Part shown: positions 23,804-63,329 of the stretch, piece after piece
Layout of the letters: the number at the start of each line of letters is the position of its first letter
Numbering within the stretch: position 1 is the stretch's first letter
NCBI GenBank assembly: GCA_015680905.1
Contig: CM027380.1
Coordinates: forward strand, 107,494,501-107,558,500
From: Coptis chinensis
Lineage: Eukaryota > Streptophyta > Magnoliopsida > Ranunculales > Ranunculaceae
Direction of reading: 5' to 3'
Length of the DNA stretch: 64,000 nucleotides
Position numbers and translations under genes: made by a program
The notes under the pieces: generated by a model
Databases searched by the model: none
Told to the model about the DNA's origin: nothing
What the model saw: the letters and a program-made list of their open reading frames with translations, nothing else

Positions 23804-24220
23804 TCATGATTGACCATGAATACTGAGTAGTTGAGAATGCTCTCAGTGAAACACGTCAGCCCCCTTTTTATTCAAATTCATGCCATTTTCAATTGTTCGT
23901 AAAAAAACCAAAAAAACAGAAAGTACAAAAGAAAAATCTCTCTCTTCCTCTTATCTCCATTTTTAAACAAAAAGAAACCTGAAAAGTGAGAGCTCTCCAA
24001 AGTAGTAACTCAGGAACCCTAACTTACTACAAGGATAGCAAGGTTTGAGAGCTTGCAATCTCTTTAAAAAAAATAGAAAAACATAAACTCTTCAAACAAA
24101 GTCTGCAATTAATCATTAGCTATCAATATACATATATTATTTATTCAAGTGGACTTTAGGCTTTTGAGTCATTAGCTATTTATGTAGCAAGTCCGGCCAT
24201 AGGCCGGGCCAAATGGCTAG
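23804..24220 (+). mobile_element. Small non-autonomous Helitron, about 0.42 kb
   Basis: The 5' end (TCATGATTGACCATGAATAC) aligns with the Helitron ends at 12141 and 34131; an alternative start is TC at 23791, which follows an A. The 3' end has the hairpin CCGGCC-ATA-GGCCGG (24193-24207), then AAATGG and CTAG, with a T following. No coding sequence. Confidence 0.75.
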
Positions 24221-26436: not shown

Positions 26437-26867
26437 TTAGGTCCATGTTTTCTATGCTAATTCACTTCAAGTGTGGAATAGGTGAAAAAGATTGAATCTG
26501 ATTAAGAAACTGAGTGAGGAGGATGAAACATAGACAAAACGGAAAATTACATAAGCTGATAAAAGAAAGAAACAGAAATGATATATTAAACAACAATTTC
26601 TACATGGTCTTCAATTCTGGAAACTTTCTCCAACACCAATTACACCACAAAAAATAATCGCCAAACAGAAATCTATAGAAACGAGACGAGAAATAAATTT
26701 CAGCCCCTGGTTCAAGTAAGCATCTATTCAAATTTTCGAAACAGTGCATTGTTGTACAGTAGTAACATATTGAAGAACCAGTCTCCTAACCAAGTAATAT
26801 AAACTTAAAATTATCCTTACACCAGTCCTTGGATCCAACTTGAAAATATGTCAGTACTCACTTTAAT
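26437..26867. other. Intergenic, no gene seen
   Basis: AT-rich sequence without recognisable motifs, upstream of duplicated segment A. Confidence 0.4.
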
Positions 26868-27905
26868 GTTGAATTACCTCATCATGATACCTGACCAAAA
26901 ATATCACCAAGACAACGTCTTCGGCTCCTATTAATGCTCGACCAATGCAGTTCACAATAACTTTCACAGTTTAAGTGTGACACAGAACTGAAGAAATGAA
27001 TTGTAATCATTGAACTGAAGTGATCTTACAATACAGGTCAATATATTGTTTACAGGTCATCAGGCAATACATCTAACTCTAGTGACAACTAGACACTACA
27101 ACTAACTCTAATGCCATCTATTACAGCTGGAAAAATCAACTGCTTCAGCAGTTACAACTAGGTTATGTTTGTTACAAAGAGTCACATCTTTGATTCTAGT
27201 AGAAAAATGGGATTAGATACTAGGGAGATTGCACTTACATTATCACACCAGATTGATGAAGGGACTTTAAGGAAAACATGTTAACTCTTTTTAACTGCAT
27301 TAGGATGTAGAGTGGTAGGAGAGACCATATACTGAAAACCTTAATTTACAGCATCGAGAGATCTTCTGGCCTTTTCCATGTACGGTATTGCAATATACCA
27401 ACAAGCTGACAGACAAAACACAGAATGGTAAACTTAAAAGACATGCTTGGAGGTGATTAAATTATAAAACTTACATTTAGACCAAGATCCATATAGTTAA
27501 ACAGCGAGGGTGTACTGTTAGAAAAATGAGACAAGAACACCTCTTAAAAGTCGATGAGCCTCCATTGGCAAAGCTAAGGAAATTGCAGTCTCATAGAAAC
27601 ATATAATTTACCCACGTGTTTTATGTAACCAACCAGTTACCATCGACCTGAACAATTGCCTATATTACATTCTTAGATCCATCCTTGGAAGAAATATTCG
27701 AACCTTGAGTACCCAACTTAATTCTGTACTGCTCAAAGAGTTTGGGTTCCTTGTGCTGAAACTTGATCACATACTTTGCCAAAAACACATCTTCTGCTAC
27801 TCTTAATGCCTGACCAATACCATTAAAACTCATTAGACCCTTTGAGATAAGTATTTCAAGAACGTAACATCTTGGAAAGACTCTCTTTTCCAAGCTTAAA
27901 TTAAA
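26868..27905. repeat. Duplicated segment A, copy 2
   Basis: Partner of 9160-10207. It contains the 3' flank of the mTERF gene plus its last 80 codons. This copy continues into the rest of the gene. Confidence 0.88.
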
Positions 27906-28838
27906 GACAGTCGCGTTCCTGACAAAATCATCCCTAGTCCAATTCAGGTTATTCATGAAGAAATTCACTACTAAATTGATCTTCTTCACTGAAACGGCCA
28001 TTACGAAGGGGTTCTTCTTGAACATGGAAAGAACCTCGTCTTCTGACCAACCAAAACTCTTATAAGCCTCCAATTTCGAGTCCCATTTAGGCTTCTTCAT
28101 CCCCACAAGCACATGTAATCCTCTAACGAATACATTACTTGACGGACTAAAACCCATATTCTTGAGTTCTAATACACTTGCATTAAGCTTGTCTGATTGA
28201 AGACATAGAACTCCAGGGTTATTGATAATCAATTTTGAGATCAAAGATTTCGACATACCATGATCTTGAAGGACGGCAACATTTGTTCCCATTTTGTCCT
28301 GTAAATTAGTGGACCACTTTAACCGTTGAAGAATAATGGCAATGCCATCATCTGTGGGGGCAAGGCTTCTAAGGAAATTGATGGAAGGGATGGTAGAATT
28401 CTCTAAGCTACTTCTCAAGAGATGTACGTCCTTGGATAGTAGTTTACCAAGATTGGGTCCTGAAATGCCAATGCTTTTGAAATATTCAAGCTTTGGCTTT
28501 AACCTTTTCTCGGGTTTCAAGAGAAGTTGAGGGTGGCCAATGATGACTTTTGAAATGTGGCTATCAGTGAAACCATAGGATTTGAAGAGATAGATAACTG
28601 AGTCAAGTTTAGCTGTTTTGGATTCGTTGAGAACAATTTTTTTGGAAGTTTTGAGAGCTGATTCTGGGGATAATCCACATGAGTTAATGAGATACTCTAC
28701 TGTGAAATTGGGTCTTGAGACGATACTAGAAATGAATCTAGTGAGTTGGGTTGTTGATATCAGGGTGGGTCTTAAATGTGAAGCAACACTCGTAGTAGTG
28801 TTAATTCTACTATGAAGTACAACTAAACGTTGCAACAT
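27660..28838 (-). CDS. mTERF family protein, organelle targeted
   Basis: An intact single-exon 392-codon gene, the usual length and structure for one plant mTERF subfamily. The N-terminal 45 residues are rich in Arg, Ser and Thr and poor in acids, which fits a mitochondrial presequence. Helical mTERF repeats follow, for example FLFKSYGF-like spacing at YLFKSYGFTDSHISKVI, then HPQLLL, LEYFKSIGISG, LKNMGFSPSS and YKSFGWSEDEVLSMFKKNPF. Conserved Pro residues mark each repeat. Family members bind organellar nucleic acids and act in transcription, splicing or translation. A truncated paralog with an internal stop sits at 9960-10207. Duplicated flanks suggest a tandem mTERF cluster extending beyond the window. 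Confidence 0.93.
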   Translation of the reverse strand: MLQRLVVLHSRINTTTSVASHLRPTLISTTQLTRFISSIVSRPNFTVEYLINSCGLSPESALKTSKKIVLNESKTAKLDSVIYLFKSYGFTDSHISKVIIGHPQLLLKPEKRLKPKLEYFKSIGISGPNLGKLLSKDVHLLRSSLENSTIPSINFLRSLAPTDDGIAIILQRLKWSTNLQDKMGTNVAVLQDHGMSKSLISKLIINNPGVLCLQSDKLNASVLELKNMGFSPSSNVFVRGLHVLVGMKKPKWDSKLEAYKSFGWSEDEVLSMFKKNPFVMAVSVKKINLVVNFFMNNLNWTRDDFVRNATVFNLSLEKRVFPRCYVLEILISKGLMSFNGIGQALRVAEDVFLAKYVIKFQHKEPKLFEQYRIKLGTQGSNISSKDGSKNVI

Positions 28839-29406: not shown

Positions 29407-31170
29407 CTATTTTTAACAAAGTAGATATCATTCACTCTAAAAAATGAAAACATGTTACCCAAACATCAAATTTTGAAGAACTCATTTTGAAGCGATAAAG
29501 GTCAAGGTAATAAAGTATATGGGTTTTTGAGATTGGGTTCTTAAGAAAGAGCAATAAGAGACTTTCTTGTTTCAAGTATTAGAATTCAGCATTCAGGAGG
29601 AACAAACAAATTTAACAAGTTTGAGATTGCTGAATGTTGAACGCTAAAATATCATTGGATGCTTAAACTATTTAAAAAAACAAACAAGTTTTTGAACCTC
29701 TTAATGCTTAAAACTTAAGTTTAAGAGGCTATGAATGCTAAATCCAGAAAAAACAAACACCCCCCTAGTCAAACTATACCAACGCAATTTGCATATTTCT
29801 TATATCTTACTATATTATAAAAATATGGGGTACCAGGAATAGTGATTTGGTGTCACGTTGTGTCCGTCACAGGAATTTTCGTTATTTCCGTCCCTTAACA
29901 AAACTTCTCAACAACTCTCTCTCTCCAATTAGGATTAGAATTCAATCTATTTCTCTTCGGACATAATCAAGCATCAAACCAATTGGAAACCCAAACGTCA
30001 TGGTGTTCTCTGCAAGCTTTTCAAGGGATATCCAGTTCTATCATTGTTTTCGAAGGTAAGTTTGGTTTTTACAATTTGGGCATTGTGTAGTAAGCTTAAA
30101 TTTGAAGATAAGTTGAGATTTTCAGTTTGTTTTTGATGAATTTTATTGAAATTTATGTTGTTCTGTTATATAACGTTGTTAAGTATTTGATTTATTGCAT
30201 TTTCAGTATAGGTTTGTCGTAACATTTGTGTAAATTATATTTTTGGTTTGATTCAAGTGGTGAGTTTCCTGTAGAATGGTTGAAGAATGGGATAATAAGG
30301 AATTAGTCAACAGGTATTTCACTATCTTTCCTTCTTCGTCCTTTTGCGTTAATTGATGTTCTATCATTTTGTGATTCATTACAGTTAGTACGGTCTATGG
30401 TCAGTTCTCACCACTTTGATTTGTATTAGTGATCAGTAGTGAGCAAGTTGCTTTGTACTTGGACAATCTACATTAAGGTACTTTGTAGTTTATATAAGTA
30501 CTTTTTTTTAGGCTTTGAGCTAAAATCAATGTCAAATATATTACGCAATTAGATTATCTTTGGTTTGCAACTTTTAGTAAATGGAAAGAATTTAAGAACG
30601 TAGATTACTCATAAGAAACATATGGCGTGATTAACCAACTCGGCAACTCCGATGACCTGTGTTGGATGAAGTACTTTATGCAACTCAGTGTCATTGCAAC
30701 TAAAGTGTGCATGCCAATATGTCACACACAAATAGAATATAAAATACAATTGAGTGTTAAATCACCTCTTTGCCCCCATTTAGTCTTCTCTTCATAGCCA
30801 CAAGTCTACAACTAATAACATGTGGCCTCATTTACGAGAGTTGTAAAATTAGTGCCTTGAGAAAGTCCACCTTCTTCCATGAGTGTTGAAGTCAGGTAAA
30901 TTCTAGTAGTAACTTAATATTCCGATTGATTAACCAAGTCCATTTAGCTTATTGGTGTTCCATCATGGTGTCATCACAATGTTTTGGCGATATGTGCAGA
31001 AATATCTGAGAGGTGAGTGACGAGATTTTGACCTTTGGCACTAATTACCAATTCAAGGTTGTTGCACACTTGCATTGCTATTGGGTAAAATTTTGGCGGG
31101 GAGACAAAAAGTTTGTTTTCTTATCAAATTTGGGTTTTCTAAAAGCATATTTTTCCGGAAACCATCAGAG
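29263..31170. repeat. Duplicated segment B, copy 2 (LINE-free)
   Basis: Matches 1-140 joined to 6856-8580. The LINE target sequence is present once at 29463-29474, so this copy keeps the pre-insertion state. An AT microsatellite is expanded here. Confidence 0.93.
29316..29403. repeat. AT microsatellite
   Basis: Nearly pure (AT)n with two ATAATTAT interruptions. It is about 10 bp long in the other copy (near 60-70). Confidence 0.95.
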
Positions 31171-33088
31171 TGCTTTGTACTAGAAAACCATTGCGTCACA
31201 TTGGAGATGAATTTATCTTAGGTATTTAGGCGTCAATCAGAATATTTGCTAGGATTAGTTTTTTGTGCAGCTTACTACATAAAATTGGCCACTATATGTT
31301 TCGGTTTTCCAGTATTTACAAATCTCATACAGCGGATATTAGTATGAGATAAGTAAACAATATGATAGTATAAAGGACTATCTACACTCTACTTATAAAT
31401 GCGATTTTATTTCCGCTACAAAGAAGCTTCTGTTTGTTAATAGATATCTTGTGTGGCTACGTGCATTAAGAAATACTACAGTGAATATTTATTATGAAAG
31501 AATTATCTGTTCATTGTATAGTTATAATGTAATCTATTGTTGTTTACAAGTTTTCTGCCCCCCTTTTCTTATAGCTGCAATTTATTAATGGAAATATCAT
31601 ACGATTTGTTATCTACTTGATATGTAAATTCAATAATTATAAGTACCTTAGCGTTGCTTCTTCCTGTGTTATTGTCCTTCTCAACTTTCTACCTGTGTAA
31701 GTTTTCCTATAGTTCCTAAAAAAAGTCAATATGAGTTAATTTACCACTTAAAAGTTTGGGAACTTAAGTTGCTATTAATCAACTATTATGAGAATTCATT
31801 ATGCTTTGTCCTTGCTATTTTTCTTGGTTGTTAGATCAATTTGTGATGCATTTTGGTTTATTTTTAGAATTCTTTGCAATGCATAACTTATCTGTTGCTT
31901 AGGTTAGGGGGATTAGAGTTAGTTGGATTGTTCTTAAGAGCTAGAGGATTGGTAGCCCCTCGCATCATAAGTGAGTTTTTTTGTTCTTTGGATATGATTG
32001 AATATGAGCCTCCCTCTAAAGTTCAGTCTTATGGAGTAACGTAATTGTAATTGTTGTATTTGGGTTATTTGTAATTGGTAATTGCAGGGGTCTGCCTTGA
32101 TGGTTGCAAACATTTTTGCAAGCTTGCTGATTACCCTGTTATGAGATGCTTGAAGAGATGAACCACAATTTAATTTTCTAGGACAATCAGATAGCGTGCA
32201 CTTACTTTCGAGCAACAAAAAATTGATTATAGACTGAAAGGCAATAGCATGCTGAAACGAAAAACACTTTGAATTTGACTTCATAGTATTGAATTTTTGT
32301 ATTTTATCAATAGTATAGAAATCAAACTCAATGAAATTCTAATTTTTTCTTGGGTTTAATGGTCACAATGCTTATGCAGAAGTGACCGCCGTTCTCATTT
32401 CTTAGCTGACCCATCATGCAAAATAAGGTATGCCGTTTGAGTGAGTGCGCCTGCTGACTCTAAGCTTCATTCCTTTGATGGATTGTGAGATTTCTAAAGA
32501 ACGGTAAATTGTGAAACCGTGCATCGCCCAAATACTAAAAAATAATGTCGTGCCACTAACTTATGGTCTGTGACACCTTTGTGGATATTTAGAAATATCC
32601 ATATTTATTGTGGTTTACGCTTGTTGGGTGATTGATCTACTTGATAAGGATATACATTTAAGAATGCAATGTACTCTTTTGTGCTGAGCAGAAGCAATTG
32701 TGAAATCCAATACTCTTCTACATGAAATGATGACGTGTCTGGTGTTGCCAAACCATACATTTTTGGTGTGCTAATTTGTGGTAGATTCGTTTTCAAGACA
32801 TGGTTGGTTTTTAGAGACTCATTACCGCAACGTATTAGTTTTACTTAGTTGGAAAAAAATATATAATATCATTTACAGATGCAAGTAGTTTTATGTTCTG
32901 TGCTTTGGAACTTATGAAATTTAGAGAAAGTTATCCGTGTCTGTATGCTTTGTTGTTGTATAGTTTTCTTGAACTGTGTTTGTAATTTTGTATGCAAGTG
33001 TGAACTGTTGAATTATAAGGGAAAGATGCTGGTTAATTTGCTTTACTTATGTTGAGATTCACATGCAACGCATGTGCACGATTGCTAG
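29805..33088 (+). mobile_element. Helitron, non-autonomous, 3.3 kb
   Basis: Starts TCTTACTATATTATAAAAAT directly after an A. Ends with a perfect 7-bp-stem hairpin CACATGC-AAC-GCATGTG (33060-33076), then CACGATTG and CTAG, with T following. These are the classic plant Helitron ends and A/T insertion site. No Rep/helicase coding sequence is recognisable. A short exon-like ATG segment with a GTAAGT donor lies at about 30000-30060, identity unknown. The 5' 1.37 kb is duplicated at 7198-8580. Confidence 0.85.
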
Positions 33089-33279
33089 TAATAAATATAA
33101 AAGGATAGAAAACTCATAAGCATGCATTGCTTATGTTCCTTGTAGTACATAATAGTACTGTATACATGGGACATAAGTATGGCCAACATGGGACATAAGA
33201 ATGGCAGGGGCGGCTCAAGATAATCGGGGCCCTAAGCAAAGTTCGAATAGGGAATCTTCTATGATTAATATATACTAAT

Positions 33280-34094
33280 AAAAATTGTTATATTTTTTTT
33301 ATTTTTTTTCTCACAACATCTTATTGATTTGTTTACGTTATTTCATATGATTCCAACTTTTTCTTTTTGTCTTTATTGAATAGTCTTCACACAAACTTGA
33401 AACTTCAATTGATTTATTTAACAAAAAATTGCAAATAGAAAGAGATAATGTAGAATAATTATATACCAAATAAAACAAATATAGAAAGAAAGAGAGATTA
33501 TATGGAAAACCCATAAAAGGCAAAAATATGATATAGATAAGATTGAATTGTTGGCGTTATATATACTTGATTATTTGTTATAGGGTAATGAAGAACTTTA
33601 ATAAGTTATGGAAGCGTGCTACTTTTTGTTGGAGAAGGTGAGGGAACCGAAGGAGTTTAAGTGTTTAACACTACTTCAACAAATAAAAATTGTTATATCT
33701 TTTTAAATTTGTTTTCTCACAACATCTTATTGATTTGTATACATTATTTCATATGATCCCAGCTTTTTCTTTTTTTTTCTTGAATAGTCTTCGCACAAAG
33801 TTGAAACTTTAATAGATTTATTTAAGAAAGAATTGCAAATAGAGAGAGAGAATGCAAAATAATTTTACACCAAATAAAACAAATATAGAAAGAAAAAGAG
33901 ATTATTGGGAAAAACCAGACAAAAAAATGATATAGGTAAGATTTAATTGTTGGTGTTATACTTAATTATTTGTTATGGGGTGATGAAGAACTTTAATTAT
34001 ATTAGTTATGGAGGTGTGCTATTTTCTGTTGGAGAAGGCGAGGGAACCGAAGGAGTTTAAGTGTTTAACACTACTTTAACAAATAAAATTTGTT

Positions 34095-34110
<16 letters not shown>
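33280..34110. repeat. Tandem repeat, about 410-bp units, third partial copy at 42310-42560
   Basis: The block from CTCACAACATCTTATTGATTTG to AAGTGTTTAACACTACTT is present twice in tandem here. The part from ACACCAAATAAAACAAAT to AAGTGTTTAACACTATTT occurs again at 42310-42540 on the far side of the Helitron. The repeat array therefore predates the Helitron. Confidence 0.85.
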
Positions 34111-34133
<23 letters not shown>

Positions 34134-34671
34134 AAAACCATTATTGCACAGTGGGCGAAAATGCTCATCTGCGATTTCAGGAGGCCACATCAGCACAATT
34201 TTTAAGTAGGTACCCAAAGTTAATTAAAAAAAAAGACAGTATTTTAATTATTTACAATTCAGCCCTTACTAAAAATTATACCAAACGTTGGATTTGCTCG
34301 AGATTGGTTATATGTTTTTGAGATCCATAAAATCATGAGAAAACAATTACACGCCAATCAAAATTATGATTCGTGATATACCTACGGAACATTAAAACAC
34401 ACAAAATGAAAAAAAAAAAAAACCCCGTCGCCTCAAACTAGAATCCTCAAAAAATGAAAAACCTTCAGCTGAGAAAACCTTCCCATCGCCTCAAACTCCA
34501 AATCCTAAAAAAACCAAAAACCTTCAATTGAAAATAGAAAACTAACCCAAAACTTTTTTCTTCTAATTCTTAAGTTTATGATCCGAGCTATCAACATTCA
34601 TATCTCTCTATAGAGGGTTGGCAGAGCCCGAACGGTTTTATTCACTTCCCGAAGTGAGTTAAAAAGAGAGT

Positions 34672-34917
34672 ATGGCTAAATCTTGCAAAGGGTTGGCAAT
34701 GGAACTGGTAAAGTGTCTTAGTGAATCCGACTGTGTTAAGGTAACACCTCTTTTGTTTCTATAACCAAACAGCTTATTCAGTTGATAAAAATTTGGTATG
34801 TTATTGTAGGTTGAAAACAAATCATATAGGGAGTGTGCAGGTGAAAAGACGCCATCCATATCCACTGAGTGTGTCGGGTTAAGGGAAACTTATTTCAATT
34901 GCAAAAAAAGAGGCCAG
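34672..34917 (+). pseudogene. COA5/PET191 cytochrome c oxidase assembly factor fragment
   Basis: Exon 1 (34672-34740) encodes MAKSCKGLAMELVKCLSESD followed by CVK. Exon 2 (34810-34917) encodes VENKSYRECAGEKTP and then ECVGLRETYFNCKKRGQ. The spaced cysteines are those of the twin-CX9C-type COA5/PET191 family, an intermembrane-space protein needed for complex IV assembly. Start codon, donor (AAG/GTAACA) and acceptor (TGTAG/G) are all intact. The short last exon encoding the basic C terminus was not found, so the copy is incomplete. It lies 540 bp inside the Helitron 5' end and brings its own 5' leader. Confidence 0.88.
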
Positions 34918-34970
34918 GTATGTTTCCTTTTTCCCATTCTTTTGAGATTTCGGTCGATGGCCAATTCCCA

Positions 34971-35462
34971 TTTTCTTCATTTGTTTCTCATTTACACATA
35001 TTTACAATGAAGAGACAAAAAAACAATGATGTGGCTCATGTATAAGTTTTACGGCCGTATGTTTGCCACTACAGACAGTTGAAGTAGGCAAAGAGTGACT
35101 TTGAGAACTCTTGCTTTAAGGATGTCACTGAAAATGTTGACTATGAGTGCTTTGTGATTGTATTCATTTGTAATTAGAGGCAGGAGTTTCGAATTTGACA
35201 AAGTACATTGTGTGTTTTCTTCATTTGTTTCTCATTTACACATATTTACAATGAAGAGACAAAAAAACAATGATGTGGCTCATGTATAAGTTTTACGGCC
35301 GTATGTTTGCCACTACAGACAGTTGAAGTAGGCAAAGAGTGACTTTGAGAACTCTTGCTTTAAGGATGTCACTGAAAATGTTGACTATGAGTGCTTTGTG
35401 ATTGTATTCATTTGTAATTAGAGGCAGGAGTTTCGAATTTGACAAAGTACATTGTGTGTTTT
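34971..35462. repeat. 244-bp tandem duplication
   Basis: The unit at 34971-35214 is repeated at 35215-35458 with no difference that I could see by eye. The second copy continues a few bases with TTTTC. Confidence 0.92.
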
Positions 35463-35545
35463 CATCTATAATCATAAACTAGATATTTAAGAGTTTGTTC
35501 GTGGTCGTTGGCCAACCATTTTTACTTCTAGGACTACGTTGGTCA

Positions 35546-35784
35546 CTAATAATAGAGTCCTGTGTTATAGAGGGATGATCGTTTAGTGTGAGCAAGTGGC
35601 TCAAATTTTATAGTAACAACAGATTTGAGAGGATGAGAACTGGATACAGAAGGGGATTTGATACTTGAGTTTCCACTTAACCTGGATTCTGGGCCGTCGT
35701 TGGTTTTATCCAGTAAACTGCTGCCATCCGTTTCATTCATCTTAAACACAATGCCAGAGGTTTGAGGATCTTCATGTTTAGGAT
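35546..35784 (-). other. Possible captured exon, unidentified
   Basis: A minus-strand open segment begins right after a good acceptor (CCTTACAG) and reads DPKHEDPQTSGIVFK, then a Ser-rich tail. Composition and the splice site suggest an exon of an unrecognised host gene. It is opposite in orientation to the other captured pieces. Confidence 0.3.
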
Positions 35785-37497
35785 CTGTAAGGTTAAAAAG
35801 AAAGATTATTGTGATGTTATTGATACAAATCATAACATATTTATAAATGCTACATGGTTTGATAAGTTTTCTGCTCTTATCATATGGTGATCATGTGGTA
35901 TATATAAGCTAAGGTGGAGATTGTTGTTAGAGAAGGTGATCAAGATGGTTGAACTATTGCGTCTACAATTAGCGAGGTTAGCGCATCTGATTTGGTTCTA
36001 GGTCTCCATGATCAAAGTTTTTTACATAGGTAAGTCAATTTGGATTTTGTCAATTGTATATACAAATGTGTTATGAGTTTCATTTTTGAGTTTGTTAAAT
36101 GAATCATCACTAATTAGGACGTTTTAATGTTTGATTTAGAATGTTCCCCTTTTTTATCCACGATTACAATTTCTATTGATTCGTGACCAAAGCCTTTTAA
36201 TGCTTCGAGCTGAGCATTATTGGTTCTTATTGAATGTGATGTGAAACCTGTATATAGGAAGGAGAAGGGTATCGAAGTCAAGTCAATCGATATTACTAAG
36301 AGGATGTGCACAACTGCACATGCATGTCACTAATGGTTAGACCCATTAATTTAGGATCTTCGCACCGGTTTTTCAAAAGTAGCCGGTGCACACGTGGTAT
36401 TTTAAGAAAATTCTGCTCAAGGATCATTATATGAGCAATTATTATAGACACTACCCTGTCCCATGGTATATGTTTGGGCTGGAGGATTGAGATTTGATTT
36501 GGACTCAAGTTTCTTTTCCGTGACACAACAATCGATTTTATTGATAGATTTCTAAATGGATTTATAGATAATTATCTAAAATAACTCTGTTTTACAATTG
36601 TTTTTAGATAAGACAACGCTCTTTAATACCAAAAGGAATGATATACAATGTAGGAGGCCTCAGCAAGTGAAGCTGGACTGGGTCTTGGCGCGCGTTAGTG
36701 GAAGCAGTATGTTGGTCTCTGTCTCTGAGAAACACTTTTGGCATGTAGAAAACATTGTGTCAGAGTATTAATGATTAGGCCAATGAAATTACTCAGTGAT
36801 CGTCTCAAGCTCATTATAGTTGCAATTTGCATTGGACTTTCACGATTAGTCTGCTACTCTGAATTTGAAATTCGCTGGTACAGCTGATAGCCTGATACAT
36901 TGCCACTGATATATATAGCACGATGTTACCTACATGGGTACCTACATAACTACAAATAGCACACACACTTAACATACACGATACACTTAACACACTTACC
37001 ATATATTCCACAGAATTACATAATTGGGTACTTTTGTTTGCCTGATTGGACTCCACATGGGCATGCGGCATAACATACAGATACTACCTGTGGAATGTAG
37101 TAGTGGTCAGTCTTTCCATCTTGGACTTAAACAGCTGTATATCAGTTTCACCACTGTAAAGTATCGGGAGGATGTTCTGAAGGACATACCTATTGACTGC
37201 AGGGTTTTAGAGAAACTTTAAATATCTAAGGGAAATATTGATTCTTTCGTTATGTTAATATTTTTCTTCCTGATGTCGCAATTTATTGTAATCAAGGTGG
37301 TTTTATAAATGACATTAGTTCGAAAGTAGTAATCAGGAGGATATGTCTGAATTACTGTGCTCATCTAACTATTGCATACTGATTTCTATGGGGGTATGAG
37401 TGTATGACCCACTCCCCCACCACAATACGAGTGGGAGAGGGGGGGAAAGATTAAGAGTTTCTTCATTTAATAATTTCAAATATCTGACAGTAATAAA
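35785..37497. other. Helitron interior, nothing identified
   Basis: A few exon-like stretches with donor sites (for example before GTAAGTCAATTTGG near 36030) but no protein I recognise. Confidence 0.35.
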
Positions 37498-39328
37498 ATG
37501 ATTCTGACAGGAAAAATTTATGAACTGGAGCAGGCTACTTCACCAAAAGGAGAGCATTTGGGTGGTGTCAGTGCGATCTGTGCAAGGGGGAACAGAATGA
37601 ACAAAATGTTACATATTCCAAAAGGAAACTATTCCTATATGTCTAGAAACTATTTTAGCCCTGTTGTGCATCGCATCTTTCTCTCATGTCAGAGCAGTAT
37701 GAAGCGAAATGCTGAATTGGAGCAGCCTCTCTCTACCTACACAAGATTCTGCAAAAAGTTTCACAGCGGTGGTCTTAAACGAAGAATTCAAGGAAGATGC
37801 GAATGCTTTCTTTCTTCAGGTACATTTAGTGCCACTTGGGCAGCCAAGAAGGATGGATAAACTTGGCATATATGGTACACAATGGCAGCAGATTGAGTAC
37901 CTTAAGGCAACTAAAACACGGACCAACTATAAAGCAGAGCCATATGACATAGAAGGACCGAATTTGGACTCAATGGAATTTTCAGAAGTCCCAGATGTGG
38001 GAAAACTTCATCTTGGCAGGAGAAATTCCCAAAACGTTGGGTGATTGTACTACTATGTTTTTCAGCATTTCTCCTCTGCAATATGGATCGTGTAAGCTAT
38101 ACCCTGGAGTCCTTACCTTCGTCTGTAGTTACCATTGACTGTTGAACCTACAAATTGTGCGTACTCTGCATTGTGTATAATATAAACTATCCATGGCAGG
38201 TGAATATGAGCATTGCCATACTTCCGATGTCTGCAGAGTACAACTGGAATCCTGCAACTGTTGGTCTAATTCAGTCATCCTTTTTCTGGGGCTATCTACT
38301 CACACAGGTCTGGCTTGGTATATGACCTGAAACTATACATGAACAGATATGGGATTAAATTTTGCTAATCCATTTGCAGTTGCGATTTTGTAGTTCAAAA
38401 ATGCAATGAACTACAGTTGGTTGAGTTTTGTAGACCTGCTGAAACTTATGTGGGATATCCTAATCTACGTAATTGGCCACTGGAACTTTTTTCAATTTCT
38501 TACATGTGGAAGACAATATTATGTAATACTCACACAAAACAACTGCAATTTATTTAAGAATTCTGAGAGTTAACTAATGTACGGAAAAGAAAGTGGAATT
38601 CAAGAAACCAATAAACTGAAATAATTCTCAAAAGCATTTCTAAGTAGCAGAATCAGCAACGTAATTTTTGTAGTACCTTGGTTTCGTATCTCTTCTTAAA
38701 ATCGAAGATGACTCACTGGAGGAGTGGAGGACAAAAAGCAGAAGGTTATAGATGTACCTTTGATAAAAGTACAATGGGGTAGCAATTCTTGACTGTTTCA
38801 CCAGCATATAGGCTTTTATATACCTATACCAGTCACATGATCACCATAGAAGTACTTATGCTCATACTTTTAGTTCTATATACACGAGGCTTAAGTCATA
38901 GGCTGCACATTGTATTATATGAACTGTTTGTGACTGAAATATACATGTATTTGTATTCTCATGGATCCACCTAGATACCGTTGCATTTTTTCTGATTGGT
39001 ACAATCTTTATAACTTTGAGAAACTTGCACAAATTACAGAGTACTTCATTGTATGTCTATATATACATGTGTGTATCAAACACATAAGAAATGGAAGTAA
39101 TAATGGTTTAATTCCCTGCATAATTTTGATAGATCATATGTGCCAAGCTTATAAGAAATTAAGTGATGGATTAAGCCTTCGTACTTCTGTTTATTTATCT
39201 TCCTATTTTTATATAGATCGCTGGACGTACTGGAATGGTTAAGAACTTTATTTTAGGCGCTCTTCATACTTCGTTAACATGTCTTCCTGTTTTTCAAATA
39301 GATCGCTGGAGGTATATGGGCAGACAAG
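37498..39328 (+). pseudogene. PHT4/ANTR plastid anion transporter fragment
   Basis: Best exons: one ending 38091 encodes FPKRWVIVLLCFSAFLLCNM followed by DR; 38200-38307 encodes [20 protein letters not shown] and then [16 protein letters not shown]; 39302-39328 encodes IAGGIWADK. These are consecutive segments of the first membrane helices of chloroplast sodium-dependent phosphate/anion transporters of the major facilitator superfamily. The exon at 38200 has intact acceptor and donor. Part of the last exon start is duplicated at 39217 with changes. Earlier material at 37498-37860 may be the transit-peptide exon with frameshifts. Later transmembrane exons are missing. Confidence 0.85.
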
Positions 39329-39416
39329 ATTTAGATCTAATTTTATTTTATTTTTATAATTTAATCTTTTTTTTTTTCTGCTGATTTATAAATAATCGAT
39401 TGTTGGTTTGCGAGAT

Positions 39417-40113
39417 ATGGCGGGATTAGCACCGAAGGATCTCGATTCGATGGTAGTCGGTATGATTCAAGATGAATGATTTGTATGTTTTAATTGGATT
39501 TATATATTTGAGCTTTTATTATTGGATGTGGAATATGATATTGTATTTTTGGGTTTTGATTGGATGTGTGTAGACTCATCCGACGGGTTTTGATGCAATG
39601 AATTTGCAAGAGAACCTTCTCGGGGAATTTATGCTTATGGTAAGTATCGATTCGCCTTTCGAGTTTTCATAAGCATGTGAGATATTTTCTTTGGGAGTTT
39701 GAGAAATATTGAATAATATTTTTTTAGCCGGGTCTTGGTTGAATTTACAAGGAAAATCGAGTTTGTTGGTTTTTTTTTGAATGATTATTTGGCGGTATGT
39801 GTTGCATAAAATTTTGCTCTCATCATTGTTGCATTATTATCCGTTGTAAATAGGTGTTTTGCATATTATAATCGCATCATGAGTAGCTCTTGGTTCTCCT
39901 AGAAATAAGAATTCCATGTGATTTACTTTTCTTTTTGTTTTGTAGGTTTTGAGAAGCCCTCGCTATTCAAAGAAAAAGGGGAATGTACCCTTCGCAAGGG
40001 GCTTGATGTGATCCAACAAGCACAACGGAACAGAAAGATCGCTACTCCCTCCTACACGATAGCATCAAGATGTTTGTATCTTGGATGAGGCCGATGAAAT
40101 TCTCTCCAAAGGT
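39417..40113 (+). pseudogene. eIF4A DEAD-box helicase fragment
   Basis: Starts ATGGCGGGATTAGCACC at 39417 (MAGLAP, as in plant eIF4A), decayed in the rest of that exon. Exon 39574-39639 reads FDAMNLQENLL and then, after a one-base loss, IYAYG. The next exon, from 39946, continues FEKPS, then KGLDVIQQAQ, and jumps to IKMFVLDEADE followed by FKDQ. The Q-motif region and DEAD box are recognisable. The ATP-binding loop and most of domain 1 between them are deleted. eIF4A unwinds mRNA 5' leaders in cap-dependent initiation; this copy cannot. Confidence 0.87.
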
Positions 40114-40907
40114 TTTAAGGATCAGTCATTCCTTTTATCCCTTGGACTCTTTGTGTATGTTATCATTAATTATAATTTTGTCACGTCTTTCAAAAAATTA
40201 TAGGGTTTACATTTGGCACATATAATAATCAGCCTGTCATTGAGAGGGAACATGAATATGATCATTTAGATGAACTGTATGTATGATCATTTAGGCAAAA
40301 TCGTGTATGTGCACCTCAATTAGTAAATTAAAAATGACATTTGGAATAGGAAAAAAAAAAAGAATACAGTTTTATCAAAAAATTAGCACAATAAGGATTT
40401 AAGCTTACGTGGCCACCATGAAAAATGCCAACGTCTCTTTCTTTAATTTCTCCTCATATATATCATCATTAGCTGCATAATCATCCTAATGAAAAAATAC
40501 ACATAATTAAAGCATGACACGCCAAACTTTTAATAGATTTGACATCCCATAGAGATAGACAAAATACATGTAAGACATACCGGTCAACTACTTTGACAAG
40601 CTGTTTTTCGTACCTAGCCTTAATCTCTTACGCCAATCTTTGTCACAAAAAGTGATTCAACAACATATACATAGTATTATTACAACATATACATAGTATT
40701 ATTCTTATTTTTTATAAACAAACTTGGAAGTGATTAGTAATAGAGAATGAAGATGGTTGTGAACTTAAATCAAATATATCATTCTACTAACAATCATAAC
40801 CTATACTAACATTCGCCATTGCCACCTCCATATTTTTGAAGAAAATAATAGTTCAAACAAAAATTTCAATTTGAGTCCACTATACAATATACTACATCTT
40901 TCTGCAG

Positions 40908-41306
40908 CCTGATAGACCAGATGAAATTGATAGAGTAGAAGCCGCTGGTGGAAGAGTCATAAATTGGAATGGCTATAGAGTACTTGGAGTGCTTGCTACT
41001 TCTCGATCCATAGGTATGTCCAATGATTTATCCTTTAAGAAATGGAATTAGTCTTACTTCCTGCTGTTTATGCTATCTTCTGAACGTAATTAAGATCTAA
41101 ATATGATGAATGTAGGCGATCAATACTTTAAACCGTATGTGATTTTTGTACCGAAGGTCAGCATAACAAAGCGAACGGAGAAAGACGAGTTTGTCATATT
41201 AGCAAGGGACGGTTTATATGATGTTATGTCAAATGAGATGGCTTGCCAGGTTGTAAGGCATTGTCGAAATGGTCAAATTGGGAGAACATTTGCAAATTCC
41301 ACCAAG
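40908..41306 (+). pseudogene. Clade A/PP2C-type protein phosphatase fragment, two exons
   Basis: Exon 40908-41013 encodes [20 protein letters not shown] and then [15 protein letters not shown]. Exon 41116-41306 encodes DQYFKPYVIFVPKVSITKRT, EKDEFVILARDGLYDVMSNE and MACQVVRHC. These match adjacent exons of plant PP2C phosphatases (the consensus reads SRAIGD and LASDGLWDV). The metal-binding region shows ARDGLYDV in place of ASDGLWDV, so selection seems relaxed. The splice sites are intact (ATAG/GTATG donor, TGTAG/GC acceptor). The N-terminal catalytic half is absent. This is the last gene fragment before the Helitron 3' end. Confidence 0.9.
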
Positions 41307-41826
41307 GTTGTAGTTTTATAATTTTCTTCTACTTGAGTTTTGAAGTTTCAATTTTGAAAAACAAATTGTACAATGATACTTTCCATATGTATTTATGTTT
41401 CCATTTTCGGCTTCAAAAGGGTACCAACTCGAACTACTCCCGTGGAGTAATCTTATGGTCCAACTCAAGCAAAGCATGTAAGCGTTTAGAAGAGATTCAC
41501 CTTATTAGCGATCTGACACAATTACATCCCAAAAAATGCAAATAACGATTGAATGTCCTCGACTACTAGGTGAGCGATAATTTTCATTCTTTCTTTTTAA
41601 GAAGCTTTCATGCTTTGGTAGGACTCAAAGTATAAGAGTTCACAAATAATTCACGTTGTTTGTTTGTTTTAGAAAAAGGACGAATATTACAAATAAGGTT
41701 CACTCACAACTGCTGTGGTGATGGAGGTTTTCACCGGACCCGCAAGTAAACCAAGGCCGATTGCCTAAGTAAAAACTGAATGTGGATCTTTAGTTTTGGT
41801 TATGTTGCAAATTGGCATTTTAAAGT

Positions 41827-41903
41827 TGATCTTTAGCTCCATAGAAGAGCACTTGAATGTGAAATACATCCCAAGAGGCGGTGGTTCAAATCCACCAAGA
41901 TCC
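41827..41903 (+). tRNA. tRNA-like sequence, probably decayed
   Basis: GATCTT at 41828 can pair with AAGATC at 41897-41902. A D-arm-like AGCTC...GAGC and a TTCAAAT loop with a perfect GGTGG/CCACC stem are present. The anticodon arm is about 7 nt longer than normal (CTTG...CAAG around 16 nt). It lies inside the Helitron. A non-functional tRNA or tRNA-derived piece is more likely than a working gene. Confidence 0.3.
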
Positions 41904-44759
41904 CTGTACTATTGTCCATAATTTGAGTAGTATATTAAGTAAGATTCGTCATTGGTTTTTAACAGATATTATGTAGTTATTATTCTTTTAGATTGTTGAA
42001 ATGTGAGGTTCGACTAATTTATTTTTTTTATATTTTTTTCAGAAAATTTCAGATTTTCCTTTTTTTTTTTTTTTAAGCTATAAAGGTTCCCTAATGATCT
42101 ATCATTCCATCTCACTGTTTTTCTTCCCGTTTTTTACATCCCCATGTCGCCAAAATGGACTAAGCCAGTTAAGTATAGTTGACTCTAATAATTTTATAAA
42201 AATTAAGCCTAAAATACAGGTAAACCCAAACGTTTAAAGCATACAATAAAACAATCCCGGCCATGCCGGGTGAAATGCTAGTATATATATAGAGAGAGAG
42301 AGAGAGAGAGTTCTACACCAAATAAAACAAATATTGAGAGATAGACAACGAGATTATAGAGAAAAACCATATAGAAAACAAAAAAAATAATATATGTAAG
42401 ATTGAATTGTTGGCGTATATATATACTTGATTATTTGTCATGGGGTGATGAAGAACTTTAATTAGTTATGGAGGTGTGCTATTTTTTGTTTGAGAAGGCG
42501 AGGGAACTGAAGGAGTTTAAGTGTTTAACACTATTTTAACGTGATTTTATGGTTTCCAATTTGCCAATGTAAAAACGTTTATCCAACAGTTAAAAATAAA
42601 TGAAAAACAATAGTGGGTTTTGGTTTTAATTTTTTCCTTTATTTCAATGGCTGGATTATATTGTGGGGGGCCTTGGGCTACGGGACCCTAAGCGGAGGCC
42701 TACTTTGCTATATGGTTGAGCCGGCCCTGACTGTACGTAAGATTAATTTTCATGACCAGAGGTAAGAGCAGTATCCCAGACTTCAAACTTGGTAAGAGCT
42801 GTATCCCAGCTGATCTATATCCAATGTATATACAGAAGAGATTCCATTAATGGGAAAATTGAGGTACAAATAGTCAATGTATATAGCTTTAAGCGCAAAA
42901 GTTCCACTTGATAACAAAAAATACAAGTTTGAGATGAAGTATTTAGTGCATGTTAATGAAACTTGATCAGCATTCATTTTTGTTTACAAATGTCAAAAAT
43001 GCAAAATATAGAAAAAAATTAGTGTATATTGCTGCTACGGTGTAAAACCAATTCATAAATGGTTGCGAACTGCATTCCATAGCAGTGGTAATTCTGTTCT
43101 TCCCCCGATTCCTGGTTAACCTCCGACTCAACGGCCTCAGCAACTTCCTTGTCGGCCTCAGGCCCTCAGCAACTTCAACTTCCTGGTCAAAGTTTGAAAG
43201 TTATACATGGAAAGGGTATGACGAGGATTAATACAAAGAACCATTGAAATGTATGATCCGATATATAATCTCAAGATTGCAGTCCACGATTCCATTGCCG
43301 TTTAGAGAGTCTCCATTTGACTTTTCAAGATTTGATGGAACGCCGAAATAATGCGTTCATTGCCCTAATGGTAATTCTGGTTGGAATTGTGATTAAGTTC
43401 GCTTTGTATCATTGAGCCCCGACCGGGAAGGCCGAGGCCGACCGGAAGAAGTTGAAGTTGCTGAGTTGAGAAGGGTTAAGGGAACATACAAAGTACGTAT
43501 ATTGGGAGCACCTCTGCTAGCGTAGCAGTCTTGTTTGTAAGTTGTAACTCCTCAAAGATTAGGTTCTCTCTTCTATTTTTTTTTTTTTTTTAGTTTCTCT
43601 GTTTCTTTTAAACTAACCTTAAACCCTTGGTTTTTTTTTTTAAATAGAAAATACCGAAATAGAAAACTTCCAGGAGACCGAATATAACCGTACTGTTTGA
43701 ATTGGTTTTGTTTTTTTGTTGGCTGGGCTGCTTAAATCAGTTGGGTCAATTGGTTTTGGGTCAATCTAATATTTGGGCTTTTATTTCTTTAGGTCAATCT
43801 AATGTTTGGATACGGGCTTTATTAGATAGTGGGTGGAGAATTAGGGGCCTTATTTTTTTTGTCAACAAGGGGGGGCCAGTCGCCTGCTTTGGTTGCCCCC
43901 CCAGAGCCGGCCCTAAAGAATGGCCAACTATAGTAAAATTAGGAACCATTTTGTAGAAAATAGAGTGGAGTAAAACGACACTAAAAAACTTCCAGATGCC
44001 AAATAATGCCAACAGGAAACAAAAATACTTCTTCATCAGCTTCACTTGCAGTTACATGTATAATTCTACATAAACCAAGATCACACCATGCCAAACATAT
44101 AACAAATTTAGAGATGTCCGCGGCTGACTCCCTGCAGCAGTCATAGGCAGATTTCCACCATTCTTGAAAGTTTTTCTTTCCTTCTCTTCATTTACTGTGA
44201 TTGTTCTTGGAGACATCAACTTCCTTCGCTGTAATGAAGCTTTGCATATTCCAACCACAAATGTTCATCATAACCATTTCCCCTGAAACGAAGAAACTTT
44301 TTGCCCATTCCTGATTCCTCAAGCCTACATTAGGCATTAACAATATAAACAAACAAGCCAAACACAGATTCCACAAAGCTTAAAGCAATAACATAGAATG
44401 ATAAGGGGGTGTTTTTTGAAATTTCCCATATCAAAATTTCACTACAAAGTCGACAATGAACACTTACCAATGAAGTTTCGTTCCATGCCTCCTTTTTGTT
44501 TTAAAAATGAAACAACTGACCGGTGAGAGGAAGTGAGGAACCATAAACTGATGGAAGGGAAACCCCAATTTCAAAACGGATATTGTATGCCAAATTGCTA
44601 AACCTCATACAATATTTCTTTCTTTCTAGTTTTACAAAAGGGAAGGCACAAGCAAATGAACAAATGAAAACCAGGCCCACACTAGGAACGAGGATGGAAG
44701 ACCATAGACTACAGATCTATTTTGGTTTAAAGCATCAGAGGCCCAACCGCCCAAGTGGT

Positions 44760-46187: not shown

Positions 46188-49578
<3,391 letters not shown>

Positions 49579-50269
49579 AGGAGTGGAAGGAGATGGATGC
49601 CGTGATGGGATTGTTATGGTGCACCTGTGTTCACTTTGTTGAATTGTTAATGAGTTATGACTTAAGTTTTGATTTTGAATTCTAGACAGCAGAGATCGGA
49701 ATGGAAAATACCGTTGGGATAATTTCTTTAATTTCTCAGATATATGGATATTATGTTGATTGGTTATGAGAAGGCTCCCTTCCCCGTAGCTGTATTATAT
49801 TCCAATGATGCTATATGAAGGCCAATGTGGGGGGGAATGCCAATGTAGTTAATAACTGTGGTATGATTCTTCATTTTTATCATATTACCCCGTAAATGAT
49901 ATCACTCCGTAAAAGGTGGGTTTAGTTAAACGGGAAAAGTTGGTCTTATGGCCATCTCAATATAAGCAAGCCTGTAACCTATTTTGGATTACAGCTAGTA
50001 TAAATTCCAATATTGTATTTTGTTTTGGTAACTAATATATATATCCTATATCTTCCGGGCATACCATATCCTTCCTCAAATTATGATTCCTCAAATTATG
50101 AAGCTATATTATGGTGATTCTGAACATCTTATATTTAGGCCAATTTTTGAAGATATTGTTCATCCAATTATATTATCAATGTCCATCACGTGCTTATCTA
50201 TTTATTCACTTGAGAAATATGATGAATTTGTAATTATAGTTGCTAGAAATGACATAAAAAAATTAATTC

Positions 50270-50675
50270 TGCCATGGGCTCGGTGAGTCCTACGACCCTA
50301 CTTCTGAGCTTTGTTCACTTGAATGTGAGAAACATAAATTGCGTCTACATCCAAGCCTTTCACATCGGCATTACTCTCTGCATTCTTAAGCAGGTCCAGA
50401 ATAAACTTTGCATATTTAGCAGGCCAACCTCCCTGTCCATTTTAGTGGCAATTCTTCCCCTGAGCAGTTCGTTCAACACCCCTGCAGAAGCGACGGAAGG
50501 GAATAGCTTGCTTATGAGCCAAAACATCCTCCAAATACCCTTTGGCCTTAATCAAGGCCATCTTTCTGATTGAATGGGCAGTTTCCCGTGTATTCTTGAA
50601 ATGAGCCCGAAGATCGGATTCCCTGTCCTTGCATGATTTGGTACGATTATCAGGCTCCTTCGAGTACTTCACCAT
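50270..50675 (-). pseudogene. Ribosomal protein L17 processed pseudogene, copy 1
   Basis: An intronless minus-strand copy. ATG at 50675 begins [20 protein letters not shown] and continues through [26 protein letters not shown] and [15 protein letters not shown] to a stop. The same protein continues in another frame as [20 protein letters not shown], then [19 protein letters not shown], an in-frame stop and RAHGRIN. Cytosolic RPL17 genes normally have introns, so this is probably a retrocopy. The C-terminal 35 or so residues are missing here but present in the duplicate at 62.7 kb. Not functional because of the frameshift and stop. Confidence 0.9.
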
Positions 50676-53962: not shown

Positions 53963-54341
53963 GACATAAGTTGCACCTACTCATAACTCATTGCAGCTTG
54001 GATAGGTCAAAACTTTCTGTACTGGTTAGTAACTTTTGGATAGAGAATGTGCTAATGTGATGCACTTTACTCGCAATTGACTCTTGACTTTTGTGGTATC
54101 CCCAGTCCCTACTTCCTCTGTCCCACATGCATATTGTAGCATAACGTCAATAATGGATTTGCTTTGGATGGTTCACATTGCATGCTCGAGTCCAGTCTCA
54201 GTTAAGGATGTGGACTTGACTTGGAAAGCTGTTCGAGCTCCGTTGTATCTCTCATTCATTTGGTTATCCTTCCCATTAGTTTTCACACTTCAAAATCTAC
54301 AAGAGCAGCCTACGCTTCTTGTATCTCATTTCATAAAAAAC

Positions 54342-57026
54342 ATGACTCAGGAGATACTTTCTGCTGTCGTGGACCAGTTGGCCTTAATCATCCGAATAGA
54401 AGTTGCACAGGAGGTGCAGTTGGTGGTGGGGGTTCGTGAAGAATTAAAAAACCTCGAGACTAAGCTCCGTTCGGTTGAAGCGGTGCTTGAAGATGCGGAA
54501 AAGAAGGAAACACATGATAATGCAGTAAAGATTTGGTTGGGAGAGCTCAAAGATGTGATGTATGATGCAGATGATGTATTGGATGAATGGAACACACGAA
54601 TTCTCATTTCTGCTAATGGTTCTCACGTTGCCAACAGCGTGCTTTCCTACTTGTTATCTTTGTGTGCTTGCTTTAAACATGTTGGTGTACGCCATGACAT
54701 TGCTCATAGGATTAAAGGCATAAGAGAACGCCTAGATGTGATTGCTCTCAATAAGGATCAACTAAGCCTCGTTCAGAGTCATAATCACGAAGAACCTCGA
54801 CAGCTCACTAACTCTGGTGTGGATGTATTGGATATATATGGTCGAGATTACGACAAACAAGAGATAATAAGCATGCTACTTTGCGAGACTAGCCAACAAG
54901 AAACTCGGGTTCATGTACCTATCTTGTCAATAGTTGGTATTGGCGGGTTTGGTAAGACAACTCTTGCGCAGCTAGTGTTTAATGAAGGAACTATAGCGAC
55001 CACCTTTGAACTGAAAATATGGGTTTGTGTTTCTGTACCTTTTGATCTTGAAAGGATTGCCAGAGAAATCATTGCACAAGCTACTAGAGAGAAGCTACCA
55101 GAAAATGTGGTTGGGTTGGAACTTCTACATCAACATTTGTGTAACTCAGTGAAGGGAAAACAGTTTTTGTTCGTGCTAGATGATGTTTGGAATGGAGATT
55201 TCGATCGTTGGGAGTCATTGAAGTTAGCTTTGGATGGTGGCGAGCGAGGAAGCAAAATCATCGTTACCACACGTAACGAAGCAGTTGCAATGATGATCGG
55301 CTCAATTTATATACACAGGCTTGCACAGTTGTCAGACAATGATTGCTGGCACATATTCAAACAAATAGCTTTTTGGGGAAGATCAAAAGAAGAGACTGAA
55401 AGATTGAAGGGAATTGGACAAGAAATTGCAAAGAAATGCAAAGGTGTTCCACTAGCTGTCAAGACATTAGCAAGTCTAATGCGATTCAAACGAGCAAAAC
55501 AAGATTGGACGGATGTATTACAAAGTGACATTTGGGAAACACAAGAAAAAGGTTTTTTACCTGCTCTTTTGTTAAGCTATCACGCTTTGCCGTCAGTTTT
55601 GAAACGATGCTTTATGTACTGTGCAATCTTTCCAAAAGACCATAACATAGAGAAGGACGAGGTGGTGAAGCTATGGATGGCTCAAGGTTATCTCGGTTAT
55701 GATAGAGCAAGAGAGCTAGAGAGGGTTGGTGTAGAGTTATTTGATGCTCTGGCGATGCGATCATTCTTCCAAGATTTTAAGAAAGACGATGATGGAAACA
55801 TTATTGAATGTAAGATGCATGATCTCGTACATGACTTTGCCGAGTTCCTCACAAAAACTGATTGCTCTGTTTTGGTGAATAATGAGAAAATTACCAGTCA
55901 CAAGATTCGTCATTTGACAGTTGATAATATAGAGAATCCATCTATCTATGAGGCGAAGAAGTTACGCACGCTGTTAGTAGGAAAAGCATCCAAGTCGGTA
56001 CCTCCTGCATTACACCAGTTCACATATCTTAGGACCTTAGACTTGAGTACTGATGCATACTATCGTCATCCTGGCCTTGAAGTACTTCCAAGTGAAGTGA
56101 GTAGATTATTACATCTTCGGTACCTTGATTTGTCAAAAACAAGACTGAAGGAATTGCCTGAGACAATGAGAAGTCTAGTTAATTTGCAAACATTGAAGCT
56201 TAACGATTGTTATAATCTTTGCAAACTGCCAGAAGGAATTGGAGAACTTTCTAACTTAAGACATCTGGAAGTTGAATACACTTGGAACCTAAAGTATTAT
56301 CCGCGAGGAGGCATTGAGAGATTGCGTCAGCTTCGAACATTAAGTAAGTTTGTTGTGAGTGATGGAAACATCAAAGGCTCCGTGATTGGGGAATTAGGAA
56401 ATCACAATTTTCTAAAAGGAAGGCTATGTATTACGGGGTTAATGAATGTAAAAAGTGTGAATGAGGCCAAGCAGGCAGAATTGCATAAAAAGAAAAACAT
56501 TTTAGAGTTGGAGTTGGATTTTGAATATTTAGATATTGGAGACGTCAGCAGCGAAGAGGAGATACGAAGGATGGAAGGTGTTCTTGAAAATCTGGAACCA
56601 CATAAAGAAAGCTTGGAACGATTGCATATGCATAACTATGTTGGCTCCACGCTCCCTTCTACTTGGATGATGTCCAATATTACATACTTGTCCCTTTTTT
56701 ATTGCCCAAATCTGAAGGTGGAACCGCACTACCATTTTCCTCTTCGGCTTGAAACTCTGGAATTATACGACGATGTAGGTGTTCTTTCAAAATCGTTAAT
56801 GTCCCTCACCCACAACAACAACCTCAAGTCTCTTATTATCTATAATTTTCCGCATTCCTCTCTCCCCCAAGAACTAAACCAACTCACGTCACTTCAACAA
56901 TTGATTTTTAATTCATGCGAATTCCTTGATTTCAAGTACTCACCATACTTCGCAAATTGGAAATCAATTACTGCCCTATTATTACTAGGAGAGAACTTAG
57001 TAGAGAGGAGGACTGGAGCATCTTAA
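54342..57026 (+). CDS. CC-NBS-LRR disease resistance protein (CNL)
   Basis: An 894-residue intracellular immune receptor of the RGA type. The ATG at 54342 is preferred because it begins MTQEILSAVVDQLA, the usual Rx-type coiled-coil start; the frame is open upstream to 54084 but does not look conserved. Positions: coiled coil 1-150; P-loop GIGGFGKTT at 199; RNBS-A around FELKIWVCVS; kinase-2 LDDVW at 279-283; GSKIIVTTR; GVPLA at 368-372; CFMYCAIFPKD; MHD at 492-494; then leucine-rich repeats from about 560. A one-base shift in GAGAGGAGGAC near 57010 replaces the expected EDWSILTHIPNIEIEGKDI terminus, still readable to 57100 in another frame. The LRR domain is short for the class. The NB-ARC motifs are all intact. 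Confidence 0.93.
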   Translation: MTQEILSAVVDQLALIIRIEVAQEVQLVVGVREELKNLETKLRSVEAVLEDAEKKETHDNAVKIWLGELKDVMYDADDVLDEWNTRILISANGSHVANSVLSYLLSLCACFKHVGVRHDIAHRIKGIRERLDVIALNKDQLSLVQSHNHEEPRQLTNSGVDVLDIYGRDYDKQEIISMLLCETSQQETRVHVPILSIVGIGGFGKTTLAQLVFNEGTIATTFELKIWVCVSVPFDLERIAREIIAQATREKLPENVVGLELLHQHLCNSVKGKQFLFVLDDVWNGDFDRWESLKLALDGGERGSKIIVTTRNEAVAMMIGSIYIHRLAQLSDNDCWHIFKQIAFWGRSKEETERLKGIGQEIAKKCKGVPLAVKTLASLMRFKRAKQDWTDVLQSDIWETQEKGFLPALLLSYHALPSVLKRCFMYCAIFPKDHNIEKDEVVKLWMAQGYLGYDRARELERVGVELFDALAMRSFFQDFKKDDDGNIIECKMHDLVHDFAEFLTKTDCSVLVNNEKITSHKIRHLTVDNIENPSIYEAKKLRTLLVGKASKSVPPALHQFTYLRTLDLSTDAYYRHPGLEVLPSEVSRLLHLRYLDLSKTRLKELPETMRSLVNLQTLKLNDCYNLCKLPEGIGELSNLRHLEVEYTWNLKYYPRGGIERLRQLRTLSKFVVSDGNIKGSVIGELGNHNFLKGRLCITGLMNVKSVNEAKQAELHKKKNILELELDFEYLDIGDVSSEEEIRRMEGVLENLEPHKESLERLHMHNYVGSTLPSTWMMSNITYLSLFYCPNLKVEPHYHFPLRLETLELYDDVGVLSKSLMSLTHNNNLKSLIIYNFPHSSLPQELNQLTSLQQLIFNSCEFLDFKYSPYFANWKSITALLLLGENLVERRTGAS

Positions 57027-59987: not shown

Positions 59988-60025
<38 letters not shown>

Positions 60026-63310: not shown

Positions 63311-63329
63311 ATGGGATCACCTGTCAAAT

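Follow-up and report, generated by a model that had tools for sequence, protein, structure and literature searches.

We analyzed a stretch of 64,000 nucleotides from Coptis chinensis (GenBank assembly GCA_015680905.1, contig CM027380.1, positions 107,494,501 to 107,558,500 of the forward strand; hereafter the window). Positions 34131-42281 of the window are read here as a plant Helitron, most likely non-autonomous, that carries captured fragments of four unrelated genes, and we put the probability of this reading at about 92%. A preliminary description, made from the letters alone, had proposed such an element with pieces of a COA5 gene, a PHT4/ANTR transporter, eIF4A and PP2C. It had further suggested that these pieces could be spliced into new transcripts, and had called the element a notable case. 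The Helitron without a detected transposase and the four fragments on one strand are retained in our analysis, whereas the case is not an exceptional one and the chimera exists on paper only.

Boundaries of the element and related ends

The flanks of the element consist of a tandem array with units of about 404 bp (Table 1). Two units, at 33274-33678 and 33679-34080, lie upstream, and a third one starts at 34079 and resumes at 42289-42540 beyond the element. We found that positions 42287-42540 were identical to the first upstream unit at 212 of 243 positions and to the second at 214 of 235. The array homology breaks off at 34101, a TA repeat fills the positions up to 34130, and the homology is taken up again from 42289, while the predicted element runs from 34131 to 42281. 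The insertion is bounded by 34101-34131 and 42281-42289, independently of any Helitron motif. As controls, the 250 bp at either end of the element were aligned to array unit 1 with free end gaps and gave 73/92 (last) and 93/118 (first) matches; this is an unfair comparison, in which it is the aligned length and not the percentage that separates the end regions from the flank. We also considered the flanks as long terminal repeats and rejected this idea; they are units of the array.

Both ends were found as they had first been described. The 5' end is a TC directly after an A at 34131. The 3' end (42256-42282) consists of the 15-nt hairpin CCCGGCCATGCCGGG at 42256-42270, then TGAAATG, and then CTAG before a T. 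The distance between hairpin and end is 11 nt, and in Helitrons the 3' hairpin is located 10-12 bp upstream of the CTRR end (PMC3288121). The terminal 52 bases at the 3' end folded better than 200 of 200 shuffled sequences (z = −3.2), and the terminal 32 bases better than 198 of 200. The same shuffle test revealed no comparable structure at the 5' end. We found no terminal inverted repeats: only one of the 12 terminal bases matches the reverse complement of the opposite end, and the best local inverted match between the two ends (6 of 7 bases) is not terminal. Pack-MULE and CACTA elements have terminal inverted repeats and target duplications. Those with captured gene pieces resemble the present element as plant DNA elements that bear host exons, and differ from it in these repeats.

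Hairpins followed by CTRRT were then counted on both strands of the window. The strict scan gave two sites, at 24217 and 42278, compared with 0.17 sites per shuffle (five hits in total in 30 dinucleotide shuffles). A looser scan for a hairpin with CTAGT returned the same two sites and one at 33085, where 0.23 sites per shuffle were expected. At this third site (33085-33089) a 7-bp hairpin precedes CTAGT, which is possibly the 3' end of another Helitron located directly before the array.

The 5' end also has relatives in the window. The motif AATGCTC, followed after 8-30 bases by CACRTCA, has three sites in the window (12170, 23836 and 34160) and was absent from all 50 shuffles, although this motif was picked after its sites had been seen, so that the count of 0/50 is not independent. 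The starts of the three ends that bear the motif (12141, 23807 and 34131) are in register by alignment. Ranking of all positions is a better test: among 127,807 other positions on both strands, the best match to the 5' end was at 12141, where A precedes TC, in register and with a score of 32, and the next, unrelated position scored 21. For the 3' end, 278 oriented CTAG sites, its own included, were compared; the best other match was at 24220 with a score of 19, and the next scored 8. Positions 23807-24220 are probably a 414-bp relative that carries both types of end, which would then form one unit.

At 12141 itself, a Helitron-like 5' end reads A followed by TCAAAGACCATT and continues into a 138-bp tandem duplication of the end region. 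We found no 3' end belonging to this start.

The first alternative to be weighed is that two Helitrons, nested or fused, make up the element, so that its 5' end stems from one, its 3' end from the other and its cargo was brought in partly by the second. Nested Helitrons and Helitrons with multiple termini have been described in maize (PMC3288121), and a fusion of this kind could supply fragments of several genes. However, the loose scan detected no further hairpin with CTAGT inside 34131-42281, although old or diverged internal ends might escape it. Moreover, the 414-bp element probably bears relatives of both ends, and for this reason an origin of the two ends from different elements is disfavoured. 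It had been stated in advance that ends belonging to different elements would speak against the proposal, and within the window the evidence leans towards one element. A composite is therefore improbable, though it is the alternative that survives best.

Captured gene fragments

The four named fragments are confirmed by matches in Pfam, in PDB or in both. Exons 1 and 2 of COA5 are open and match Pfam Pet191_N with E = 2 × 10−16 over 54 of 67 profile positions. COA5 had no match in PDB at E up to 1. Its last exon was not among the tblastn matches at E up to 0.5, for which the query of 15 residues was a weak one. Three tblastn matches to other places, at E of 0.21-0.36, were taken as chance and dropped.

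The joined transporter pieces match Pfam MFS_1 (E = 1.6 × 10−9). The nearest solved relatives are vesicular glutamate transporters (VGLUT2 in PDB, E = 1.4 × 10−10), and the name PHT4/ANTR, rather than that of other members of the same MFS group, is in part our assumption. We likewise assume, in part, that 37706-38091 is the N-terminal exon of the transporter; its upstream part had no Pfam match. A 24-bp stretch over the acceptor of exon 3 is duplicated, and this gives a second exon-like start at 39217.

The eIF4A fragment is the most damaged one. The match to eIF4A-I in PDB reached E = 9.5 × 10−11 for a query joined across a deletion, and single stretches gave 2.7 × 10−5 and 0.2. The N-terminal piece had no Pfam match and the DEAD piece was under the Pfam cut-off. 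The ATG of the first exon is out of frame with the stretch that matches there. The stretches FDAMNLQENLL and RGIYAYG also lie in separate frames, which meet at 39621. Furthermore, the match leaps from residue 85 to residue 187 of a presumptive eIF4A query, so that about 100 codons are lost. Because of the frameshifts and this loss, the eIF4A piece is classified from its sequence as a pseudogene.

The two exon fragments of group A PP2C join in frame. They match Pfam PP2C with E = 1.9 × 10−28 (profile positions 142-239 of 255) and PP2C 37 in PDB with E = 5.9 × 10−32. Compared with PP2C 37, ASDGLWDV is changed to ARDGLYDV, LAMSRAIGD to LATSRSIGD, and VIPDPEV to VIFVPKV. We take the changed positions to be conserved ones.

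All four genes are incomplete, and introns with GT and AG borders have been kept. This retention of introns indicates that the pieces were captured as DNA and not as mRNA. A normal syntenic block of full genes is an unlikely explanation, since none of the four genes is whole and the eIF4A piece is disrupted. The four identified fragments all lie on the plus strand, as had been claimed, and the chance of this is 1 in 8, which is within expectation. The claim of a single orientation would not extend to a possible fifth piece on the minus strand (35549-35785). This piece had no Pfam or PDB match, and its codon score of 6.6 coincides with the median of the maxima obtained from shuffles. The codon-score test is weak, because even the PP2C exon (7.8) and the best stretch (8.8, at 37706-38041) are under the 95% level of the null (8.9). 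A fifth captured fragment at this place is possible. A universal-stress-protein-like piece in 35908-36300 was also considered and is unsupported; one piece of it was checked against Pfam and had no match.

Domains of a transposase were looked for with Pfam in 57 of the 62 stop-free stretches of at least 45 amino acids (53 scanned whole and four partly through exon-joined pieces), and no Rep, helicase or other transposase domain was found. The remaining matches beyond the named cargo were weak and under the family cut-offs, and the weak DEAD-box hit belongs to the eIF4A fragment. Since no transposase domain was found, the element is probably non-autonomous.

Near the 3' end, the tRNA-like sequence exceeds the Rfam cut-off (Table 1). 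ARAGORN made no call there at default settings, and with lowered thresholds the models listed included discordant ones (Cys, Ser and Lys).

Table 1. Coordinates of the element, its cargo, its flanks and a probable relative in the window.
Feature	Positions	Strand	Remarks
Helitron without detected transposase	34131-42281	+	8,151 bp; delimited by ends and interrupted tandem array
5' terminal region	34131-34197	+	TC start after A; subterminal motif AATGCTC...CACATCA
3' hairpin, 7 nt and CTAG, before T	42256-42281	+	6-bp stem, 3-nt loop
COA5/PET191 exon 1 with ATG	34672-34740	+	ends at GT donor, phase 0
COA5/PET191 exon 2	34810-34917	+	ends at GT donor, phase 0
Tandem duplication of 244 bp	34971-35458		two copies, 100% identical
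Possible fifth captured exon	35549-35785	−	open frame after pyrimidine-rich tract and AG
Putative N-terminal coding exon of transporter	37706-38091	+	ends in CGT before GTAAGC; internal frame changes
Transporter exon 2	38200-38307	+	36 codons; phase 0 at both ends; donor GTCTGG off consensus
Transporter exon 3, start	39302-39331	+	match stops after IAGGIWAD
eIF4A pseudogene fragment	39417-40131	+	ATG piece; exon 39574-39639; exon from 39946; DEAD-box piece 40078-40131
Group A PP2C exon fragment a	40908-41013	+	
Group A PP2C exon fragment b	41116-41306	+	
tRNA-like sequence near 3' end of element	41827-41904	+	38.8 bits; Rfam cut-off 29
Left flank	33274-34130		two units and start of third, tandem array of about 404 bp; ends in (TA)15 microsatellite
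Right flank	42282-42540		remainder of third array unit
Probable short Helitron	23807-24220	+	414 bp; related 5' and 3' ends, putatively paired; starts with TG, not TC

Possible chimeric transcript

The preliminary description had suggested that read-through from the COA5 leader could splice the pieces into new transcripts. In this scenario a promoter located within the COA5 leader or ahead of it would drive a transcript in which COA5 exons 1-2, transporter exon 2, eIF4A exon 2 and PP2C fragments a and b are joined, and a protein of 162 to 220 amino acids would result. Beyond COA5, we selected those exons that are flanked by an acceptor as well as by a donor, and used native sites only; the combination was found post hoc. 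The transporter exon and the eIF4A exon can each be put in or left out, and all four resulting combinations remain open and reach PP2C in its native frame; the first stop follows soon after 41306, after 162, 184, 198 or 220 amino acids. COA5 exons 1-2 are themselves open, and it has been described that maize Helitrons produce chimeric transcripts and read-through transcripts (PMC4528327). The native splice sites thus permit an open frame from COA5 to PP2C, and to this extent the suggestion holds.

However, inclusion of other exons would close the frame early: at 105 amino acids with transporter exon 3, at 150 with its duplicate start, and at 138 with eIF4A exon 3. When GTRAG was the only motif looked for as a donor, the end of transporter exon 3 had none, and eIF4A exon 3 had a single one, at 40570. 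The donor of transporter exon 2, GTCTGG, is off consensus. The PP2C part, with ASDGLWDV altered to ARDGLYDV and LAMSR to LATSR, differs from PP2C 37 at positions that are presumably conserved. In addition, agreement of phase at the three joins would arise by chance in at least 1 of 27 cases. Phase 0 introns are in excess, and chance agreement of frames is accordingly likelier than 1 in 27.

We consider it very unlikely that the element yields a chimeric transcript and protein. The open frame of 220 amino acids across COA5, transporter, eIF4A and PP2C is a prediction and not evidence of a gene. Still less probable is a transcribed and translated exon-shuffling product of 220 amino acids in which the cysteine-rich domain of COA5 is fused to one transporter helix, one eIF4A exon and a portion of a group A PP2C. 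The captured pieces do not appear to indicate a working new gene or a new protein function.

Origin and comparison with known Helitrons

Several observations weigh against the identification of the element as a Helitron. The third array unit has 57 bp between the anchors at the insertion point, compared with 160-161 bp in the other units; it is about 104 bp shorter, the 57 bp are mostly a TA microsatellite, and this is not a clean empty site. The insertion point is A followed by T and lies in a TA repeat, which would mask any target duplication. The 5' end of the 414-bp relative at 23807, where A precedes TG, ranks just 32nd by direct score. Lastly, the window holds no second copy of the 8.15-kb element, and for the pairing of the ends of the 414-bp relative neither an empty site nor a second copy was seen.

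The perfect 244-bp duplication inside the element is either very recent or an assembly artefact. Inserted DNA of another kind, or an assembly artefact, at the TA microsatellite might accommodate this duplication, the position in a TA repeat within a tandem array and the imperfect empty site, but it is highly implausible given the TC start, the hairpin with CTAG before T, the relatives of both ends in the window and the absence of terminal inverted repeats.

For a non-autonomous Helitron, the following origin may be proposed. A RepHel protein from an autonomous relative would have moved the element by rolling-circle copying. In several rounds of uptake, pieces of COA5, a PHT4/ANTR-type transporter, eIF4A and a group A PP2C would have been taken up as genomic DNA. 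After capture, at least the eIF4A piece would have decayed as a pseudogene, and any transcript of the element would be a by-product.

Such a history accords with what has been described in other plants. Maize Helitrons acquire several gene fragments stepwise, and ZmhelA1, a putative autonomous element, has eight predicted ones (PMC3288121). Gene-capturing Helitrons of maize share with the present element the TC and CTRR ends, the 3' hairpin, insertion between A and T, and several unrelated fragments (PMC3288121). The present element has four identified fragments compared with the eight of ZmhelA1, and the likeness is one of type and not of compared end sequences. Of 1,793 gene-capturing Helitrons in Brassica napus, 35.25% resemble this element in having at least two fragments (PMC11986588). 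By contrast, gene capture by Helitrons is reported to be rarer in Arabidopsis and rice (PMC2575219). Experiments with a bat element support the read-through model of capture (PMC4778049), and a review of 2026 treats such capture as established (PMC13317346).

The statement that four functions in one non-autonomous element make a notable case does not hold, as Helitrons with multiple fragments are common (PMC3288121 for maize; PMC11986588 for Brassica napus). We found no literature that reports this combination of captured genes in a Helitron; the coverage was partial and this says little. Capture of several genes by Helitrons is already known, and as a type of element this one adds no new principle. 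It offers a case of multi-gene capture whose limits are well defined and whose ends have relatives within the window, and its exon coordinates are precise enough to ask whether mixed Helitron cargo is spliced into one frame.

Other features were also recorded in the window. A LINE-like element on the plus strand (359-6795) contains open reading frames for DUF4283/zinc knuckle, reverse transcriptase and RNase H-like domains. Direct repeats of about 1.7 kb with 98% identity are located at 6856-8579 and 29463-31171, 22.6 kb apart. Positions 9163-10207 are 88% identical to 26865-27904, and the latter extends into the 3' end of an mTERF gene on the minus strand (27660-28838). A CC-NB-ARC-LRR disease resistance gene with 980 open codons was found at 54084-57026. 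A dispersed duplicate occupies 48220-50627 and 59710-63325; its pieces are 89-98% identical and the second copy is longer.

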